Assembly (NCBI RefSeq): GCF_001047675.1 | Contig: NZ_CP011975.1 | Coordinates: forward strand, 2,706,073 to 2,770,072 | Direction of reading: 5' to 3' | DNA length: 64,000 nt | Source: Yersinia aleksiciae | GTDB taxonomy: Bacteria; Pseudomonadota; Gammaproteobacteria; Enterobacterales; Enterobacteriaceae | Part shown: in pieces, positions 41,030 through 48,220 of the stretch | Layout of the letters: the number at the start of each line of letters is the position of its first letter | Position numbering within the stretch: the stretch's first letter is position 1 | The notes under the pieces: generated by a model | What the model saw: the letters and a program-made list of their open reading frames with translations, nothing else | Told to the model about the DNA's origin: nothing | The model's database searches: none | Program-made: the position numbers and the translations under genes

Positions 41030-41111
41030 TTTGCACTCCTTAAGAATAAAGGTGGCAAAGGTATCTGAGGCGGTCAATAACAGCGGTGTCGAGGTGATAC
41101 GGCGTTATTTT

Positions 41112-41346
41112 TCTCAAATCCCTCCGCCGGTTTTAACCGGATCAGGTTCGACGGGTGTACTCTCAGCAAAAACGTGCTGCGCCGTGGTTGATACAGCGTT
41201 GGGCAGTACTCGAAATCCTCACGTACTTCAAGTACGCTCCGGTTTCTCCGTGCTGTCCGCCACTGTCTGAACCCGGCTCGCTGTGTTTTTAACACTTGCG
41301 GCACCGGATTGAACTTGGCTAGCGATGTTCTTGCACCCCGTTGAGA
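41112..41346 (-). ncRNA. TPP riboswitch with enlarged P3 arm
   Basis: Read on the minus strand, all core THI-box parts are present. P1 is TCTCAA (41346-41341) pairing with TTGAGA (41117-41112). CGGGGTGC (41340-41333) starts the pyrimidine-sensing side; CTGAGA is at 41166-41161, ACCCG follows, then AACCTGATCCGG and GGCGGAGGGA. It controls thiBPQ. P3 is formed by GCAAGAAC (41334-41327) and GTTTTTGC (41173-41166), a perfect 8-bp stem with one G-U pair. Between the strands lie 153 bases instead of the usual few. This insert contains its own hairpins, including CGTACTT c AAGTACG (41222-41236). The aptamer is therefore about 235 nt long but keeps every conserved element. Confidence 0.88.
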
Positions 41347-41388: not shown

Positions 41389-43050
41389 TTATGCCTCCGG
41401 TGGGGTAAACCAGGCGGATTTGAAGTCAAACCAGCCGAGGGTGTTCATTCGCACGCCACGCATACTGTGCTGCCCATATAATTCTAGCCAGTGATGGAAC
41501 AGTGGGTGGAATTGATTTTGGCTAACCAGTCGTTGGCTCCAGTCCGCCATCGGCAGGGTATTATTGCGCCATGATTCTACGTCCTGATGCAGCTCGTCGT
41601 CGAGGCAGTGTTGCAGCAGCGGCAGCTCATACAGGGTGGCAAACAGCGAGAACTCCAGCGGCAGGTAGAAGTTGGCGCTGCCGAGCCAGATGTCGCTCTG
41701 CGCATCCCCTTGATACCAACTGACATAATCCACGGCCTGAATCACCAGCTTGACGCCATGGGCAGCCAGCAAGGTGGTCAGTGTTTGGCTGATGGCATCA
41801 AACTCAGAGTGCTCGCGGTAAAAGGTGAGGGTCAGTTCGGTCAACCCTTCCGGCTTGGGTTCCAGTGTGGTGAGCCGATTGTGGTGCCAGCGCGGCAACA
41901 TACCGTAAGCCGGTGACCAGTAGCGCTGATAGAAGGGGTCGGCATGGCTGAGTAGGGCGACGGGGGTGATCAGCTCACAGAGCCAGCGGCGGATATCGGG
42001 ATGGCGGGTTTGGGCGGATCGCTGGTCAAACAGCAAAAAGTAGCAGCCCTCTTCCAACCGACTCTCCAGCTCATTTTTACTGGTGTCGTCTGCCTGCAAC
42101 TGCACGCCGGAATAGACCAACTCTTCAGACAACTCCGGCAGCACCCAGATATTGACTTCATCAATCAACGCACGGAAACCAAAATAGTTATCAAATGCCT
42201 GAATTTTCAATTGACTATGATGATTGCGCATCACGGAATAAGGGCCCGTGCCGATAGGGTGGCGCTGGAAATCAGGCTGGCTTTCCCACTCTTGCGGCAA
42301 AATCATGGCGTGCACACTGCCCAGCAGCCACGGCAACCAGTGGTCTGGGCTACTGAGATGCACGTCAATGACATAGGGGGTCGGTGAGCGCACCGCGGTG
42401 ATATGGGAGAACAGAGGTTGCGGGATCAGTCGGGTCAGGCTGGTGATGACATCCTCCATCTCCAGTTCGCGGCCATGGTGAAAATGGATAGCGGGGCGCA
42501 AATAAAAGCGCCAATGCAACGGGCTGATGGCTTGCCAGTGATGAGATAAGTCGGGTTCGAGTTCCCCATTTTCCTCATTTATCCGCGTCAGGCCATTAAA
42601 GATCTGCCGAACCATGTGGGTTTCTGAGCGGCGCAGGGCGGTACCGGGGAGCAGGTTAGGCAGTGGGCGGTAATAGAGCACGCGCAGAATATGTTTACCC
42701 TGGCGGAAGCTGCGCCCTAGCTGGGATAGCAGCATTTGGCGCACCGCTTTTTTATCCCCCACCAACTGCACTAACTGATCAATATTGTCCTGTTCCAGTA
42801 ACTCGTCGGCCCGCTGCTGTTGCAGTGCCAGCCCGGAATAAAGGAAGGTCAATTGTGAGCGCTTACCACGCCCCGCTTCCGCTTGCCAACTTAGCCAGCC
42901 CTCGTGCTGCATGCTGCCCAGCAAGGATCTGACATGGCGGCGTGAGCAACAGAGCACGTCAGCCAACTCCTGTAGGGTGGTCTCCGTTGGCTGGCCATTA
43001 AAACGTTGCCAGAGGCGAATAAACTGCTGTTGCAAACGTGAGGCAGACAT
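41389..43050 (-). CDS. sgrR: SgrR, sugar-phosphate stress regulator
   Basis: A 553-residue transcription factor; E. coli SgrR has 551. It activates sgrS when glucose-phosphate analogues accumulate. The N-terminal winged helix ([36 protein letters not shown]) is joined to a C-terminal domain like oligopeptide-binding proteins (SBP family 5: ...[30 protein letters not shown]). ATG at 43050 matches the E. coli start ([10 protein letters not shown]); an in-frame ATG at 43071 adds seven residues. In E. coli the divergent neighbour is sgrS; here it is pflE, so SgrR may also control that promoter. Confidence 0.96.
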
Positions 43051-43175
43051 AAAAGAGGAACTCCACGACAAATTTCATCAATTTTTCTTTCCCTATATTA
43101 CGCAGATACTGGTTGCCATGGAAAGCGGGTTATCGCCGCGATGCCGATGCAGTCACAGCTAATGGGAGGAATAAG

Positions 43176-44066
43176 ATGATTTTTAATTTGCAGCGCTATT
43201 CCACCCATGATGGCCCCGGCATTCGTAGTGTGGTGTTTCTCAAAGGCTGCTCGCTGAGCTGCCGCTGGTGCCAAAACCCAGAGAGTCGTTCACCGAAACC
43301 CGAAGTGTTATTTGACCCACGTCTTTGCCTGGCGGGTTGTGACCTGTGCCACCAGAGCGCCATCCAACGTATTGATGAAAAACTGGTTATCCAGCGCCAG
43401 TTATTGGCGGAAGCGGATATTCAGGCGCTGACCCTGCGCTGCCCCAGTGGCGCGCTGACAGTGTGCGGTAGCCCGATAGATCTCAATGCCACGATGGAAA
43501 CCCTGCTGCGTGACTTACCGTTTTATCGGCGTAGCGGCGGTGGGGTGACCCTATCCGGCGGCGAGCCTTTTATGCAGCCTGAGGTTGCCGCTGAACTGTT
43601 ACAGCGCTGCCATCAACTCGGTATTCATACGGCGGTTGAATCTTGCTTACATACGCCGTGGCGCTATATCACCCCAGCTTTGCCGTGGCTTGACTTGATG
43701 CTGGCGGACCTCAAACATACCGATGAGCGCCGTTTTCAGCAGTGGACCGGCGGTTCGGCCAAGCGGGTGATGGATAACTTCCGCAAGTTAGCTGCCGCGG
43801 GCACTCATATCACGGTGCGGGTACCGCTGATCCCCGACTTCAATGCTGATCGTCACTCGGTGCGAGGGATTGTCGATTTTGCCGCCGATGAGATTGGCGT
43901 GAAAGAGATTCATTTTTTGCCTTACCACACGCTGGGTATCAATAAATATTCGCTGCTGGGTGAAGACTATCTGGCCGCCAATCGCCCTTTGGACGCTCCT
44001 GATCTGCTGGCCTTCGCGGAAAGTTATGCCCGTGACAAGGGCCTGACCGCAATTTTAAGAGGATGA
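43176..44066 (+). CDS. pflE: Glycyl-radical enzyme activase PflE (YbiY)
   Basis: A 296-residue radical-SAM enzyme; E. coli YbiY has about 308. It uses S-adenosylmethionine to place the glycyl radical on its partner, here PflF. The 4Fe-4S site is CSLSCRWC (CxxxCxxC) after [21 protein letters not shown] further cysteine cluster (CLAGCDLC) may hold an auxiliary cluster, and [16 protein letters not shown] is the SAM-binding segment. ATG at 43176 follows GGGAGGAA at ideal spacing; the frame is open further upstream, but without family similarity. pflF begins four bases after its stop codon. The gene is divergent from sgrR. Confidence 0.93.
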
Positions 44067-44070
44067 CGCA

Positions 44071-46503
44071 ATGACCACGCTCGATTTGGTAACCTTAAGC
44101 GAACGGACAAAACAGCACAAAAATGCCCTGATCCACATTGTGAAACCACCGGTATGCACCGAGCGGGCGCGGCATTATACCGAGGCTTATCAGCAACATC
44201 AGGATAAGCCCTTGCCGGTTCGTCGCGCACTGGCGCTGGCCCATCATCTACAGCAGCGCAGGGTTTGGATCAAAAACGATGAGCTGATTATTGGTAATCA
44301 GGCTAGCCAACTGCGCGCCGCCCCGATTTTCCCTGAATACACTGTCGGCTGGATCGAAAGTGAAATCGACGAGCTGGCTGATCGCCCCGGAGCGGGCTTC
44401 TCGGTCAGTGAAGCAGACAAGTCAGTATTGCATCAGCTGTGCCCATGGTGGCGGGGTCAAACCGTGCAGGATCGCTGCTACGGTATGTTTACCGACGAAC
44501 AGAAAGCGCTACTGGCGACCGGCATCATCAAGGCAGAAGGCAATATGACCTCCGGTGATGCCCATCTGGCGGTTAACTTCCCGCTGTTGCTGGAGAAGGG
44601 CTTAGATGGCCTGCGCACCAAAGTCGCCCGTCGCCGCGAGCGCCTGCAACTGACCGACTGGAGTGATCTGCATAAAGAGCAATTTCTGAAGGCGATTGAT
44701 ATCTCACTGGCGGCGCTGAGCGAACATATCGAGCGCTATGCGGCTGTGGCGCGGCAAATGGCGGAAGAGGAGACACGCGAATGGCGGCGTACTGAGCTGC
44801 TGGCGATTGCTGAAAACTGCGCGCTGATTGCTCATCAACCGCCGCAGACCTTCTGGCAAGCTTTGCAGCTGTGCTATTTCATTCAGCTCATTTTGCAAAT
44901 TGAGTCCAATGGTCACTCGGTCTCCTTTGGTCGCCTCGACCAGTATCTCTACCCGTGGTATCGCCGTGATGTGGAGCTGGAAAATACTCTCAGCCGCGAA
45001 CAGGCGATTGAGATGCTGCATAGCTGCTGGCTGAAGTTACTGGAAGTGAACAAAATTCGATCCGGCTCGCACTCCAAGGCGTCGGCGGGTAGCCCGCTCT
45101 ATCAAAACGTCACGATTGGTGGGCAAAAACTGGTGCAAGGCAAGGCCATTGATGCTGTTAACCCGCTCTCTTATGCGGTGCTGGAGTCGTGCGGGCGCTT
45201 AAAATCAACCCAGCCTAACCTCAGTGTCCGCTACCATGCGGGGATCAGCGACGATTTCCTTGATGCCTGTGTGCAGGTCATTCGCTGCGGTTTTGGCATG
45301 CCCGCTTTTAATAATGACGAAATCGTGATTCCTGAATTTATCAAGCTGGGCGTGGAGCCGCAGGATGCCTACGACTATGCGGCGATTGGCTGTATTGAAA
45401 CTGCCGTAGGCGGCAAGTGGGGCTACCGCTGTACTGGCATGAGTTTTATCAACTTTGCTCGTGTGATGCTGGCTGCCCTGGAACAGGGGCGCGATGCCAC
45501 ATCCGGGCAGGTGTTCTTGCCGCAAGAGCAGGGGCTGTCGAAAGGCAACTTTACTGATTTCGCCCAAGTGATGACGCAGTGGGATCAGCAGATCCGCTAC
45601 TACACTCGTAAATCCATCGAAATCGAGTGTGTGGTGGATACCGTGCTGGAAGAGAATGCCCACGATATCGTCTGCTCGGCGCTGGTGGATGATTGCATTG
45701 AGCGCGGTAAAAGCATCAAGCAGGGGGGCGCACGTTACGACTGGGTTTCTGGCTTGCAAGTGGGTATCGCCAATCTGGGTAACAGCTTGGCAGCGGTGCG
45801 AAAACTGGTGTTTGAACAACAGCTTATCGGCCAGAAACAACTGGCAACGGCGCTCACCAATGATTTCACGGGCCTAAACGGCGAGCAGTTGCGCCAACAT
45901 CTGATTAATTCAGCCCCGAAATATGGCAATGATGTTGATGATGTTGACCAACTTCTGGTGCGGGCTTATCAGACCTACATTGATGAGTTGAAGCAATATC
46001 ACAATACTCGTTTTGGTCGCGGACCTATTGGTGGCACCTATTACGCTGGGACGTCATCCATCTCTGCCAACGTGCCATTTGGTGCGGCGACCATGGCAAC
46101 ACCGGATGGTCGCAAGGCGCACAGTCCGTTGGCGGAGGGCGCAAGTCCAGCCTCCGGCACTGACCATCTAGGGCCAACGGCGGTGTTTAACTCACTGTCG
46201 AAACTGCCAACCGCCTCGATTCTGGGTGGGGTGTTGCTGAATCAAAAACTGAATCCGTCTACCTTGGATAACCCCCGCGATCGCGAGAAGTTGATGATGA
46301 TGTTGCGTACTTTCTTCGAGGAGTATCTGGGTTGGCACGTGCAGTACAACATTGTGTCCCGCGAGACGTTAGTGGATGCCAAATTGCATCCGGATCGTTA
46401 CCGCGATTTGGTGGTCAGGGTGGCGGGTTACTCGGCCTTCTTCACCGCACTGTCGCCAGATGCGCAGGACGATATTATCGCCCGCACCGAGCATACCCTA
46501 TGA
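44071..46503 (+). CDS. pflF: Glycyl-radical enzyme PflF (YbiW)
   Basis: An 810-residue glycyl-radical enzyme, exactly the length of E. coli YbiW and very similar throughout (TTLDLVTLSERTKQHKNAL..., FPEYTVGWIE, GNMTSGDAHLAVNFPLLLEK). The catalytic Cys is residue 441 in AAIGCIETAVGG. The radical-bearing Gly is residue 786 in RVAGYSAFF. The GCIE motif places it with the dehydratase/lyase branch, not true pyruvate formate-lyase. I recall published work on E. coli YbiW as 1,5-anhydroglucitol-6-phosphate lyase, yielding 1-deoxyfructose-6-phosphate for an Fsa aldolase; by orthology that is the likely reaction, working only without oxygen. No fsa gene is in this window. The setting between sgrR and sgrS-setA is the notable point. 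Confidence 0.93.
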   Translation: MTTLDLVTLSERTKQHKNALIHIVKPPVCTERARHYTEAYQQHQDKPLPVRRALALAHHLQQRRVWIKNDELIIGNQASQLRAAPIFPEYTVGWIESEIDELADRPGAGFSVSEADKSVLHQLCPWWRGQTVQDRCYGMFTDEQKALLATGIIKAEGNMTSGDAHLAVNFPLLLEKGLDGLRTKVARRRERLQLTDWSDLHKEQFLKAIDISLAALSEHIERYAAVARQMAEEETREWRRTELLAIAENCALIAHQPPQTFWQALQLCYFIQLILQIESNGHSVSFGRLDQYLYPWYRRDVELENTLSREQAIEMLHSCWLKLLEVNKIRSGSHSKASAGSPLYQNVTIGGQKLVQGKAIDAVNPLSYAVLESCGRLKSTQPNLSVRYHAGISDDFLDACVQVIRCGFGMPAFNNDEIVIPEFIKLGVEPQDAYDYAAIGCIETAVGGKWGYRCTGMSFINFARVMLAALEQGRDATSGQVFLPQEQGLSKGNFTDFAQVMTQWDQQIRYYTRKSIEIECVVDTVLEENAHDIVCSALVDDCIERGKSIKQGGARYDWVSGLQVGIANLGNSLAAVRKLVFEQQLIGQKQLATALTNDFTGLNGEQLRQHLINSAPKYGNDVDDVDQLLVRAYQTYIDELKQYHNTRFGRGPIGGTYYAGTSSISANVPFGAATMATPDGRKAHSPLAEGASPASGTDHLGPTAVFNSLSKLPTASILGGVLLNQKLNPSTLDNPRDREKLMMMLRTFFEEYLGWHVQYNIVSRETLVDAKLHPDRYRDLVVRVAGYSAFFTALSPDAQDDIIARTEHTL

Positions 46504-46626
46504 TTAATTGTTCCAGATGATGTCTGTTGAGTGAAATGAGTCCTGCTGTGATATTGAGTCTAAAAATTTTCTGAGTAATGGTGTATTTCACCAGCCAGTA
46601 GGTTATTAACCCGCTGGCTTTTTTTA
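46504..46626 (+). ncRNA. sgrS: SgrS small RNA, 3' conserved part
   Basis: SgrS silences ptsG mRNA with Hfq during sugar-phosphate stress. The conserved core CTGAGTAATGGTG (46571-46583) matches E. coli SgrS CTGAGTATTGGTG, the stretch that pairs with the ptsG translation start region. It is followed by the small stem GGTG tattt CACC and by the terminator stem GCCAG...GGTT...AACC...CTGGC (46594-46618) with eight T, again as in E. coli. The 5' end is not clear. E. coli SgrS is 227 nt, and that length would reach into pflF. No SgrT reading frame or clear promoter was found between the pflF stop and the core. It lies directly upstream of setA, as in E. coli. Confidence 0.82.
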
Positions 46627-46897
46627 TTACCCTTCGTACTTGAAGCTGTGGCGTTGTTAGCTTCACTCGTTACTCGGCCCATCCTTGGGCCTCACCTCTG
46701 CGAGGCCGCTGCAAGCAGCGTTCAAATCTGCTCCAGGCAAATTTGTCACCAGAATCACTTACTTATGTAAGCTCATCGGGATTAATGAGCCTCAAGGATG
46801 AGGCTCCCCCTACGGGCTAGCATAAATGCTGTTCAAATCGGTTCCCGATTTGTCGTTCGCTTGCTGCCTAGCCACAACTCCAATTACTTTGGGTAAT
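46626..46897. repeat. Composite ERIC with two internal insertions
   Basis: The ends (ATTACCC ... GGGTAAT) and the central part (ATCACTTACTTATGTAAGCTC) follow the ERIC consensus, but the element is 272 bases instead of 127. The surplus is two stretches of about 65-70 bases, near 46673-46743 and 46790-46856. They resemble each other (both contain GTTCAAATC followed by ATTTGTC) and lie symmetrically around the centre. It abuts the SgrS terminator and may fold into a long stem in the setA leader. Confidence 0.75.
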
Positions 46898-46906
46898 ATA
46901 TTTTGC

Positions 46907-46936
46907 ACTTGAAGCTGTGGCGTTGTTAGCTTCACT
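46907..46936. repeat. Partial ERIC end, direct repeat
   Basis: These 30 bases are identical to 46638-46667 at the left end of the composite ERIC and lie in the same orientation, 269 bases apart. They look like a truncated second copy, perhaps from insertion of one ERIC beside or into another. Confidence 0.7.
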
Positions 46937-47038
46937 TAGTTATCAGGAAAATGATTTCTCCCATTAAAATTATGCTGCTTTATATAAGAGCTTCTGTAGC
47001 ATAGAGAAATATTGTTATTTCTGGTGCTGGAACCTGAA

Positions 47039-48220
47039 ATGAAATCTGCACTCACCTTTTCCCGTCGCATCAACCCGGTTTTTCTCGCTTTCTTTGTGGT
47101 GGCTTTTCTTTCTGGTATCGCTGGCGCGTTGCAGGCACCGACATTAAGCCTGTTTTTAAGCACCGAAGTAAAAGTTCGCCCACTCTGGGTTGGCCTGTTT
47201 TATACCGTGAATGCCATCGCCGGGATTACGGTCAGCTTTATTCTGGCGAAACGCTCAGATTCACGTGGCGATCGCCGCAAGCTGATCATGGTCTGCTATC
47301 TGATGGCGGTGGGGAACTGCCTGCTGTTTGCCTTTAACCGTGATTATCTGACATTAATCACTGCTGGGGTGTTGCTGGCATCGGTCGCTAATACCGCCAT
47401 GCCGCAGATATTTGCCCTAGCGCGTGAATATGCCGACAGCTCGGCGCGTGAAGTGGTGATGTTCAGCTCTATTATGCGTGCGCAACTTTCATTGGCGTGG
47501 GTTATCGGGCCGCCGCTGTCGTTTATGCTGGCACTGAATTATGGTTTTACCCTGATGTTTAGCATTGCCGCGGGTATCTTTGTGCTGAGTGCGCTGGTGG
47601 TATGGTTTATTCTGCCGTCAGTGCCGCGCGCCGAGTCGGTGGTGGATGCGCCGGAGGTGGCACAGGGTAGCTTGTTTGCTGATAAAAATGTGCGACTGCT
47701 GTTTATTGCCTCGATGCTGATGTGGACTTGCAACACCATGTATATCATTGATATGCCGCTGTATATCACCGCAAGTCTGGGGCTGCCTGAGCGCTTGGCC
47801 GGTTTGTTGATGGGCACCGCCGCTGGGTTGGAAATTCCCATTATGCTGCTGGCAGGCTATTCAGTTCGGCGCTTTGGAAAGCGTAAAATCATGCTATTTG
47901 CCGTGCTGGCTGGCGTGCTGTTTTATACCGGATTGGTGCTGTTTAAATTCAAAACTGCCTTGATGCTGCTACAGATTTTCAACGCCATCTTTATCGGTAT
48001 CGTCGCGGGTATCGGTATGCTCTATTTCCAAGATTTAATGCCGGGCAGGGCGGGCGCTGCTACCACGCTGTTCACCAATAGCATCTCGACTGGCGTGATT
48101 CTGGCAGGGGTGCTGCAAGGGATATTGACCGAAACTTGGGGGCATGATTCGGTGTATGTGGTGGCGATGGTGCTGGCGATTCTGGCATTGGTTACTTTTG
48201 CGCGGGTGCGGGAAGCTTAG
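47039..48220 (+). CDS. setA: Sugar efflux transporter SetA
   Basis: A 393-residue major facilitator protein with twelve predicted membrane segments; E. coli SetA has 392. It exports glucose, lactose and toxic glucose analogues. Family segments are SRRINPVFLAFFVVAFLSG, the loop RSDSRGDRRK after helix 2, and DMPLYITASLGLP. ATG at 47039 fits E. coli SetA; an in-frame ATG at 47012 would add nine residues before the first charged cap. In E. coli setA is co-transcribed with sgrS and helps recovery from sugar-phosphate stress. A composite ERIC lies between the two here. Confidence 0.93.
   Translation: MKSALTFSRRINPVFLAFFVVAFLSGIAGALQAPTLSLFLSTEVKVRPLWVGLFYTVNAIAGITVSFILAKRSDSRGDRRKLIMVCYLMAVGNCLLFAFNRDYLTLITAGVLLASVANTAMPQIFALAREYADSSAREVVMFSSIMRAQLSLAWVIGPPLSFMLALNYGFTLMFSIAAGIFVLSALVVWFILPSVPRAESVVDAPEVAQGSLFADKNVRLLFIASMLMWTCNTMYIIDMPLYITASLGLPERLAGLLMGTAAGLEIPIMLLAGYSVRRFGKRKIMLFAVLAGVLFYTGLVLFKFKTALMLLQIFNAIFIGIVAGIGMLYFQDLMPGRAGAATTLFTNSISTGVILAGVLQGILTETWGHDSVYVVAMVLAILALVTFARVREA

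Follow-up and report, generated by a model that had tools for sequence, protein, structure and literature searches.

Glycyl-radical enzyme genes in the place of sgrT: a probable rewiring of the phosphosugar-stress transcript in Yersinia

Why should the genes of a glycyl-radical enzyme stand in the middle of a phosphosugar-stress locus? The question is raised by a 64,000-nt stretch of the Yersinia aleksiciae genome (positions 2,706,073–2,770,072 of NZ_CP011975.1, here called the window; genome G000, contig C1 in our labelling), which belongs to a single-contig assembly of 4.0 Mb with a stated completeness of 94%. Profile and covariance-model scans of window positions 41389–48220 gave sgrR on the minus strand, diverging from pflE, pflF, the small RNA (sRNA) SgrS and setA on the plus strand (Table 1). 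A preliminary description of this DNA had placed pflEF between sgrR and sgrS, with pflE in the divergent slot that sgrS holds in Escherichia coli, and had suggested that pflEF may be under SgrR. Comparison with the E. coli locus bears out the divergent slot and the position, but the alignment of loci indicates that pflEF have actually replaced the 5' portion of SgrS that carries sgrT. The preliminary interpretation was thus sound in part; it had missed this replacement, the probability that the pflEF message ends in SgrS and the origin of pflEF in an fsaA-yciT cluster. Taken as a whole, the locus is likely to specify a rewired phosphosugar-stress transcript, in which SgrR would drive pflE, pflF and SgrS on one RNA.

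The preliminary description had left room for a linkage peculiar to one isolate, and the linkage proves to be wider than that. Among 25 Yersinia species genomes, sgrR is present in all, pflF at no less than 82% identity in 22, and the two lie within 5 kb of each other in 21. The seven Yersinia entries among 80 named loci (L032–L038) are all linked too. The order sgrR, pflE, pflF, setA is identical across the 21 linked loci, all of which were examined in detail. In three of the non-linked species (G155, G163 and G168, with sgrR at 81–83% identity) pflF was not matched at E ≤ 1e-100, and the fourth, G169, has a pflF of 82% identity on a different contig from sgrR. Outside Yersinia, among 149 genomes across the family, 45 carry pflF at 81% identity or more and all 45 carry sgrR, but the two genes are never near each other there: the nearest of 18 same-contig pairs are 228 kb apart and the other 27 pairs are on separate contigs, some of them in drafts. 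Nor was sgrR matched in the flanks (up to 5 kb, some truncated by contig ends) of pflF in the 73 non-Yersinia loci among 80 named loci, and pflE is absent from the sgrR locus in all 40 non-Yersinia loci read, out of 76 genomes with sgrR. In one linked locus (L153, genome G167) the pflE leader holds a tandem array of GATTGTTTATCAAAGTC-like units and is about 130 nt longer than in relatives.

The interval 43051–43175, which the preliminary description had singled out for SgrR binding, is precisely the 125-bp gap between sgrR and pflE. The promoter segment found here is identical to the E. coli sgrR-sgrS region at 47 of 66 bases (mean 18 and maximum 30 in 2000 shuffles) and to three basal Yersinia that retain sgrT at 59–60 of 66. 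Invariant columns number 54 of 66 over the 21 pflE-type loci and 48 of 66 over all 25 Yersinia. In every one of the 21 linked loci pflE is immediately preceded by a promoter of the sgrS type, whose conservation extends to E. coli; this supports the earlier suggestion that pflEF are controlled by SgrR. Alignment to the annotated 5' end of E. coli sgrS would place the transcription start near 43117. In the 40 non-Yersinia sgrR loci, the strict form of the promoter start occurs in 28 and a loose form somewhere in all 40. Derivation of the pflE leader from the old fsa-pflE site was considered and rejected, as it gave no match to the Serratia region.

At the other end of pflF, the SgrS seed CTGAGTAATGG is unchanged in 25 of 25 Yersinia, and both the small hairpin and the terminator hairpin fold in all of them; in seven the SgrS match reaches the gathering score. 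The window's SgrS lies between sgrR and setA, and its predicted duplex with the ptsG leader of its own genome has a free energy of −30.1 kcal/mol, the best of 300 mononucleotide shuffles giving −26.9. In the basal species G155, G163 and G168 the promoter is followed by a 58-codon open reading frame (ORF; MMKK.LT.QFYQ.YF...) resembling E. coli SgrT, and then by the SgrS seed and terminator. No sgrT ORF is present in the window, in the other 20 linked loci or in G169. An SgrS-like seed occurs in 34 of the 40 non-Yersinia sgrR loci, 107–340 nt from the sgrR start. In reviews, the SgrS of Yersinia is presented as a 5'-truncated RNA of 85–140 nt that lacks sgrT and is known as a separate sRNA from deep sequencing (published work cited here and below refers to the available parts of PMC4021124, PMC12441222, PMC6232918, PMC4585118, PMC3493969, PMC4202721, PMC4376681, PMC6775132, PMC4072538, PMC13060122, PMC8464067, PMC12132413, PMC6393394 and PMC10729762). 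Because the three basal species keep an sgrT-like ORF, the term "truncated" is not valid for the genus as a whole.

A second SgrS-like RNA (22–34 bits) is found away from sgrR in eleven Yersinia genomes, the window's genome not among them. In all six cases inspected (L122, L138, L139, L140, L141 and L130 of genomes G153, G150, G159, G165, G157 and G154) it lies between same-strand genes for a major facilitator superfamily (MFS) transporter and a Cof-type HAD phosphatase; the further matches are in G164, G040, G158, G156 and G149. Its seed, GUGACUGAGUAUGGU, is closer to E. coli SgrS.

Where did pflEF come from? Comparison of gene neighborhoods points to an fsaA-yciT cluster. The gene for the aldolase Fsa lies beside pflE in 62 of the 73 non-Yersinia named loci (divergently in those displayed), with a YciT-like, DeoR-type gene also in the flank of 28 of these 62, and 11 of the 73 have neither neighbor. 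The Serratia loci displayed carry a cstA-like gene and then fsa, diverging from pflE, pflF, a yciT-like gene and an aldolase-like gene, the last two named by appearance. A CTTTCATTCGAAAG box occurs within two mismatches in 61 of the 62 fsa-pflE gaps (1 of 300 random 170-mers) and an FNR-like site within one mismatch in 47 (6 of 300). Among 11 Yersinia Fsa loci read, seven from sgr-linked species have fsa and the yciT-like gene 0.2–0.4 kb apart with no pflEF between them, and these old sites keep the CTTTCATTCGAAAG box within one mismatch and an FNR-like site weakened to one or two mismatches. The three basal species have fsa without the box and without a YciT-like gene in the 1.5-kb flank, and one Fsa gene of G169 adjoins its own pflEF. 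Before the linked pflE both elements are missing: there is no FNR-like site within two mismatches in 43051–43175 (three to four mismatches across the 21 linked regions), and the CTTTCATTCGAAAG box is absent from the same 21 regions (three to six mismatches). The sgrS promoter is therefore the visible candidate for control of pflEF.

In a tree of 44 PflF proteins, which took in a hand-chosen 22 of the 73 named loci, PflF from the sgr locus groups with Serratia PflF (its split from the remaining proteins has a support of 0.99) and PflF of G169 falls with Citrobacter (0.73). G169 itself (L166, L167) has no pflEF at sgr and an E. coli-like fsaA-pflE-pflF-yciT cluster elsewhere; pflEF may have been lost there and regained, or may never have moved. 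The YciT-like protein is 61% identical to E. coli YciT in Yersinia and 69% in Serratia. In E. coli, YciT reportedly binds at fsaA, ybiY and ybiV and alters their expression; activity of ybiYW under anaerobic conditions, with YciT near the start, is likewise reported. Since the CTTTCATTCGAAAG box is found with no mismatch in the E. coli fsaA-ybiY gap and with one mismatch before ybiV, where this binding is reported, we propose that it is a YciT site.

Over a length of 810 amino acids, PflF and E. coli YbiW are 84% identical; identity with PflD-like homologs is 39%. The PDB chains that match PflF best in sequence are those named YbiW, and PflF is 95–98% identical among 20 relatives. The 84% identity agrees with the earlier assignment of PflF as YbiW. 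The stretches RVAGYSA and GCIE, which we take to be the glycyl loop and the cysteine motif, are identical between the two proteins. By analogy, PflF is presumably a 1,5-anhydroglucitol-6-phosphate lyase; uptake of 1,5-anhydroglucitol by the phosphotransferase system and cleavage by YbiW to 1-deoxyfructose-6-phosphate are described in a review (PMC12441222, citing Ma et al. 2024). The preliminary description had gone on to speak of a catabolic arm. Such an arm is uncertain here: an Fsa-type aldolase scores above the model cut-off in 24 of 25 Yersinia, but in the window's genome the model search found no Fsa and just a transaldolase-like match. Simple loss of the gene was dropped as an explanation because a 7.6-kb region around fsa in the relative G162 (L253) is missing from the window's genome as a whole, so that a large deletion or an assembly gap is likely and may account for the absent Fsa. 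The missing stretch carries, by appearance, fsa, CstA-like and RNase II-like genes, and only a dispersed repeat within it finds matches, 58 in number. Should Fsa really be lacking, PflF would serve for detoxification but not for full catabolism.

These elements suggest the following mechanism. The divergently encoded SgrR would activate the old sgrS promoter at 43048–43118, as its conservation implies, and RNA polymerase would transcribe pflE-pflF and continue to the SgrS terminator at 46591–46625, the first terminator-like structure past pflF. An RNase would probably cut the message within or close to the A/U-rich stretch that precedes the seed and so free its 3' end, with the SgrS seed and terminator; the released SgrS would repress ptsG with Hfq. 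PflE and PflF, if they share the activity of their orthologs, would anaerobically cleave 1,5-anhydroglucitol-6-phosphate. The coding half of the RNA would have been swapped, from E. coli SgrT, a blocker of the transporter PtsG, to PflE-PflF, and relocation from the cluster in which fsaA diverges from pflE-pflF-yciT would have exchanged FNR-like and CTTTCATTCGAAAG (oxygen and YciT) control for SgrR control. That 1,5-anhydroglucitol-6-phosphate triggers SgrR is a further step that we infer. The fuller claim, that this compound is the natural SgrR trigger and that one SgrR-activated RNA in most Yersinia encodes both its lyase and the sRNA that stops its import, is tentative and on balance doubtful.

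Is SgrS the end of the pflEF message or a transcript of its own? Across the 21 linked loci the seed begins 32–104 nt past the pflF stop and the T run ends 84–156 nt past it. In the spacers, hairpins ahead of T runs of at least four are no stronger than −2.4 kcal/mol in any of the 21 loci, and in the absence of a terminator there polymerase moving past pflEF should run into SgrS. The rival account keeps pflEF on the old sgrS promoter and gives SgrS a promoter within the pflF end or the spacer, so that two transcripts share a terminator. The reviews in which Yersinia SgrS is a separate sRNA of 85–140 nt would suit this account, as would AT-rich −10-like stretches in some spacers, such as TGTGATATT in the window. 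However, the published size does not discriminate, since a processed 3' end would look alike and the 84–156 nt span resembles it; the −10-like stretch is not common to the species, and five of them have spacers of only 32 nt. A second copy of the sgrS promoter is found in none of the 21 loci in the 500 nt before SgrS (best −33 bits against 70–81 for the true site, in a plus-strand scan with a matrix built from these same loci). Synonymous variation in the last 60 codons of pflF is not depressed: over 20 of the 21 genes (the remaining one differed in length and was dropped) it comes to 1.03 times the gene mean, and the least variable codons of pflF are its first 20. Nothing in these sequences points to a conserved SgrS start, and the pflEF message probably ends in SgrS; the two-transcript account is unlikely.

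Other alternatives concern the signal, the enzyme or the control of pflEF. SgrR might control pflEF while sensing general phosphosugar imbalance or another metabolite, with PflEF as one of several outputs. In E. coli, SgrR responds to build-up of glucose-6-phosphate and alpha-methylglucoside-6-phosphate and is reported to bind glutamate in vitro, and E. coli-type pflEF clusters have no sgrS-like promoter and a reported regulator of their own, YciT. Against this, a lyase in the sgrT slot, kept in 21 of 25 species, is most easily explained if its substrate arises in SgrR-type stress, which is itself compatible with general sensing; we give this account only a little short of an even chance. PflF might instead have drifted, or might act on another phosphate, one example being the 1,5-anhydromannitol compound attributed to PflD. 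We know of no measured activity for any Yersinia PflF, and Fsa is missing from the window's genome, but full-length identity is far higher to YbiW than to PflD-like homologs and sequence is closely kept among relatives, which makes a different substrate improbable. Last, pflEF might have been inserted once and inherited without SgrR control. A single ancestral event would yield the same species distribution, and the promoter is only a putative site of the SgrR operator. Such passive linkage is nevertheless highly improbable, given a promoter kept directly before pflE, with a ribosome-binding sequence, in all 21 loci and the disappearance of the old FNR-like and YciT-type boxes, which leaves the sgrS promoter as the visible candidate.

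Several points weigh against a single SgrR-driven RNA for stress relief, the missing Fsa among them. The window's SgrS match, at E = 5.8e-6 in a search of 801 bases, falls short of the gathering score and does not appear in the gathering-level scan; covariation is modest, with two-sided changes in 3 of 14 consensus pairs, two of these three also having non-pairing rows. We accepted the match because of the invariant seed, the folding hairpins and the predicted ptsG pairing. G169, which has neither pflEF nor sgrT at this locus, retains the promoter together with a short SgrS, so a short SgrS is possible without pflEF, and short SgrS also occurs in some other genera. The state of G169 may reflect pflEF loss or a stage before insertion; an sgrR tree was set aside as a means of placing it, the deciding split having a support of only 45. 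A lineage-specific, dissimilar SgrS promoter, for example inside pflF, is possible. The consensus promoter and terminator scan returned three promoter-like sites, each of them on the minus strand, where 6.0 were expected. Its silence on the spacer says little, and it was set aside as evidence, because neither the sgrS promoter nor the terminator of SgrS is among its hits. No sgrS-like promoter was found before pflE or fsa in six regions scanned outside Yersinia, E. coli included (best −13 to −19 bits; 30 random 500-mers averaged −14.8 with a best of −1.9, and E. coli sgrS, itself part of the matrix, gave +30.9), so SgrR control of pflEF would be specific to Yersinia. The glutamate binding noted above means that the signal may differ, and SetA is reported not to export alpha-methylglucoside. 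In Y. massiliensis (L145/L032) the pflE matches are split over two frames, possibly through a frameshift or a sequencing error.

The locus shares with E. coli sgrR-sgrS/sgrT-setA its regulator, its divergent promoter, the seed-and-terminator design and the downstream setA. It differs in that pflE-pflF replace the SgrT ORF and that SgrS, which in E. coli starts near the promoter, starts 67 nt past the pflF stop. With E. coli fsaA/ybiY-ybiW-ybiV, to which Ma et al. 2024 are cited as having assigned the 1,5-anhydroglucitol-6-phosphate pathway, it shares an orthologous lyase and activase in the same order, but the 21 Yersinia loci lack fsa and the CTTTCATTCGAAAG box of that YciT-controlled cluster and lie behind the sgrS promoter. 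Its SgrS is the same RNA as the "truncated" Yersinia SgrS (Ysr150), described as having lost sgrT and kept the ptsG-pairing part; the available parts of that literature mention the truncation only, with nothing on pflEF, and Horler and Vanderpool (2009) may have noted the neighbors. Like SdhX and GlnZ, SgrS would here be an Hfq sRNA derived from the 3' portion of a metabolic mRNA. Unlike them, it would descend from a dual-function sRNA that once stood alone and that would have turned into a 3' untranslated region (UTR) when an operon was gained upstream, followed by presumed processing. The open-licence literature yielded nothing joining SgrS or SgrR with anhydroglucitol, or Yersinia SgrS with pyruvate formate lyase; the matches inspected for SgrS with "glycyl radical", pflE, pflF, YbiW or YbiY were, in the parts available, unrelated, due to the surname Pfleger, or E. 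coli YciT studies.

SgrS was discovered using laboratory analogues such as alpha-methylglucoside, and to our knowledge the relevant natural phosphosugar is not settled. Reviews name glucose-6-phosphate build-up and analogues as triggers. A specific lyase for a non-glycolytic phosphosugar, wired genus-wide into an SgrR transcript, would offer a testable natural trigger, and suggests that the alarm for toxic sugar-phosphates may now also launch the destruction of the poison. If the single-transcript reading is true, the "truncated" Yersinia SgrS would have to be seen anew, as the terminal portion of a metabolic mRNA. The locus would also show cleanly how moving genes can rewire regulation, with the old site, the boxes left behind, the new promoter and the displaced ORF all visible.

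Table 1. Features of the sgrR-setA region, in window coordinates
Feature	Position	Strand	Description
sgrR	41389-43050	-	NF010149 1052 bits (cut-off 476); PF12793 + PF00496; sugar-phosphate stress activator, HTH and SBP_bac_5 domains
Former sgrS promoter, now ahead of pflE	43048-43118	+	CATAAAAGAGGAACTCC...TTTCCCTATATTACGCAGATACT; candidate -10 GATACT at 43105-43110
pflE leader	43119-43175	+	Contains ribosome-binding sequence GGGAGGAATAAG; FNR-like site absent at up to 2 mismatches
pflE (ybiY)	43176-44066	+	Radical-SAM activating enzyme; TIGR02494 330 bits (cut-off 174); 64% identical to E. coli YbiY
pflF (ybiW)	44071-46503	+	Glycyl-radical enzyme; TIGR01774 1258 bits (cut-off 678)
Spacer, pflF to SgrS seed	46504-46570	+	67 nt; no terminator-like hairpin ahead of a T run; probable 3' UTR stretch
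SgrS RNA	46535-46625	+	RF00534 29.1 bits (below gathering 37); seed CTGAGTAATGGTG from 46571, hairpin GGTG-TATTT-CACC, terminator hairpin from 46591, T run
Repeat-rich insert between SgrS and setA	46638-46940	.	Two 50-nt copies, 82% identical, 269 nt apart
setA-type sugar efflux transporter gene	47039-48220	+	TIGR00899 531.5 bits (cut-off 522.3)

The ORF listing begins sgrR, pflE and setA at upstream TTG codons, and the ATG starts used in Table 1 were adopted from the sequence and the alignment with E. coli PflE. The product of sgrR scores at the equivalog level of NF010149 and has both the SgrR_N and the SBP_bac_5 domain. The setA-type gene scores 452.9 with the SetB equivalog model, against a required 693. 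The insert between SgrS and setA is not thought to play a part in the mechanism. Within it, 46653–46754 on the minus strand is repeat-rich and resembles RF02902 below gathering, and is probably a dispersed repeat; this match and one to BsrF, both beside SgrS, were set aside for scores below gathering. Another repeat-rich segment at 41221–41294 on the plus strand, matching RF02228 just above gathering, is also probably a dispersed repeat. A thiamine pyrophosphate (TPP) riboswitch at 41102–41196 on the minus strand (54.6 against a gathering score of 54.3) lies upstream of a gene resembling that for a thiamine-binding protein.

The window's genome also encodes an SgrR paralogue of 603 amino acids (NF010149, 562 bits; L168 3320–5131 on the minus strand, equal to G000:C1:3865319-3867130). 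Near it lie a gene for an XyeB-type radical-SAM peptide maturase (TIGR04496) and a secretion-type gene, and it is possibly an SgrR-family regulator of a peptide cluster.

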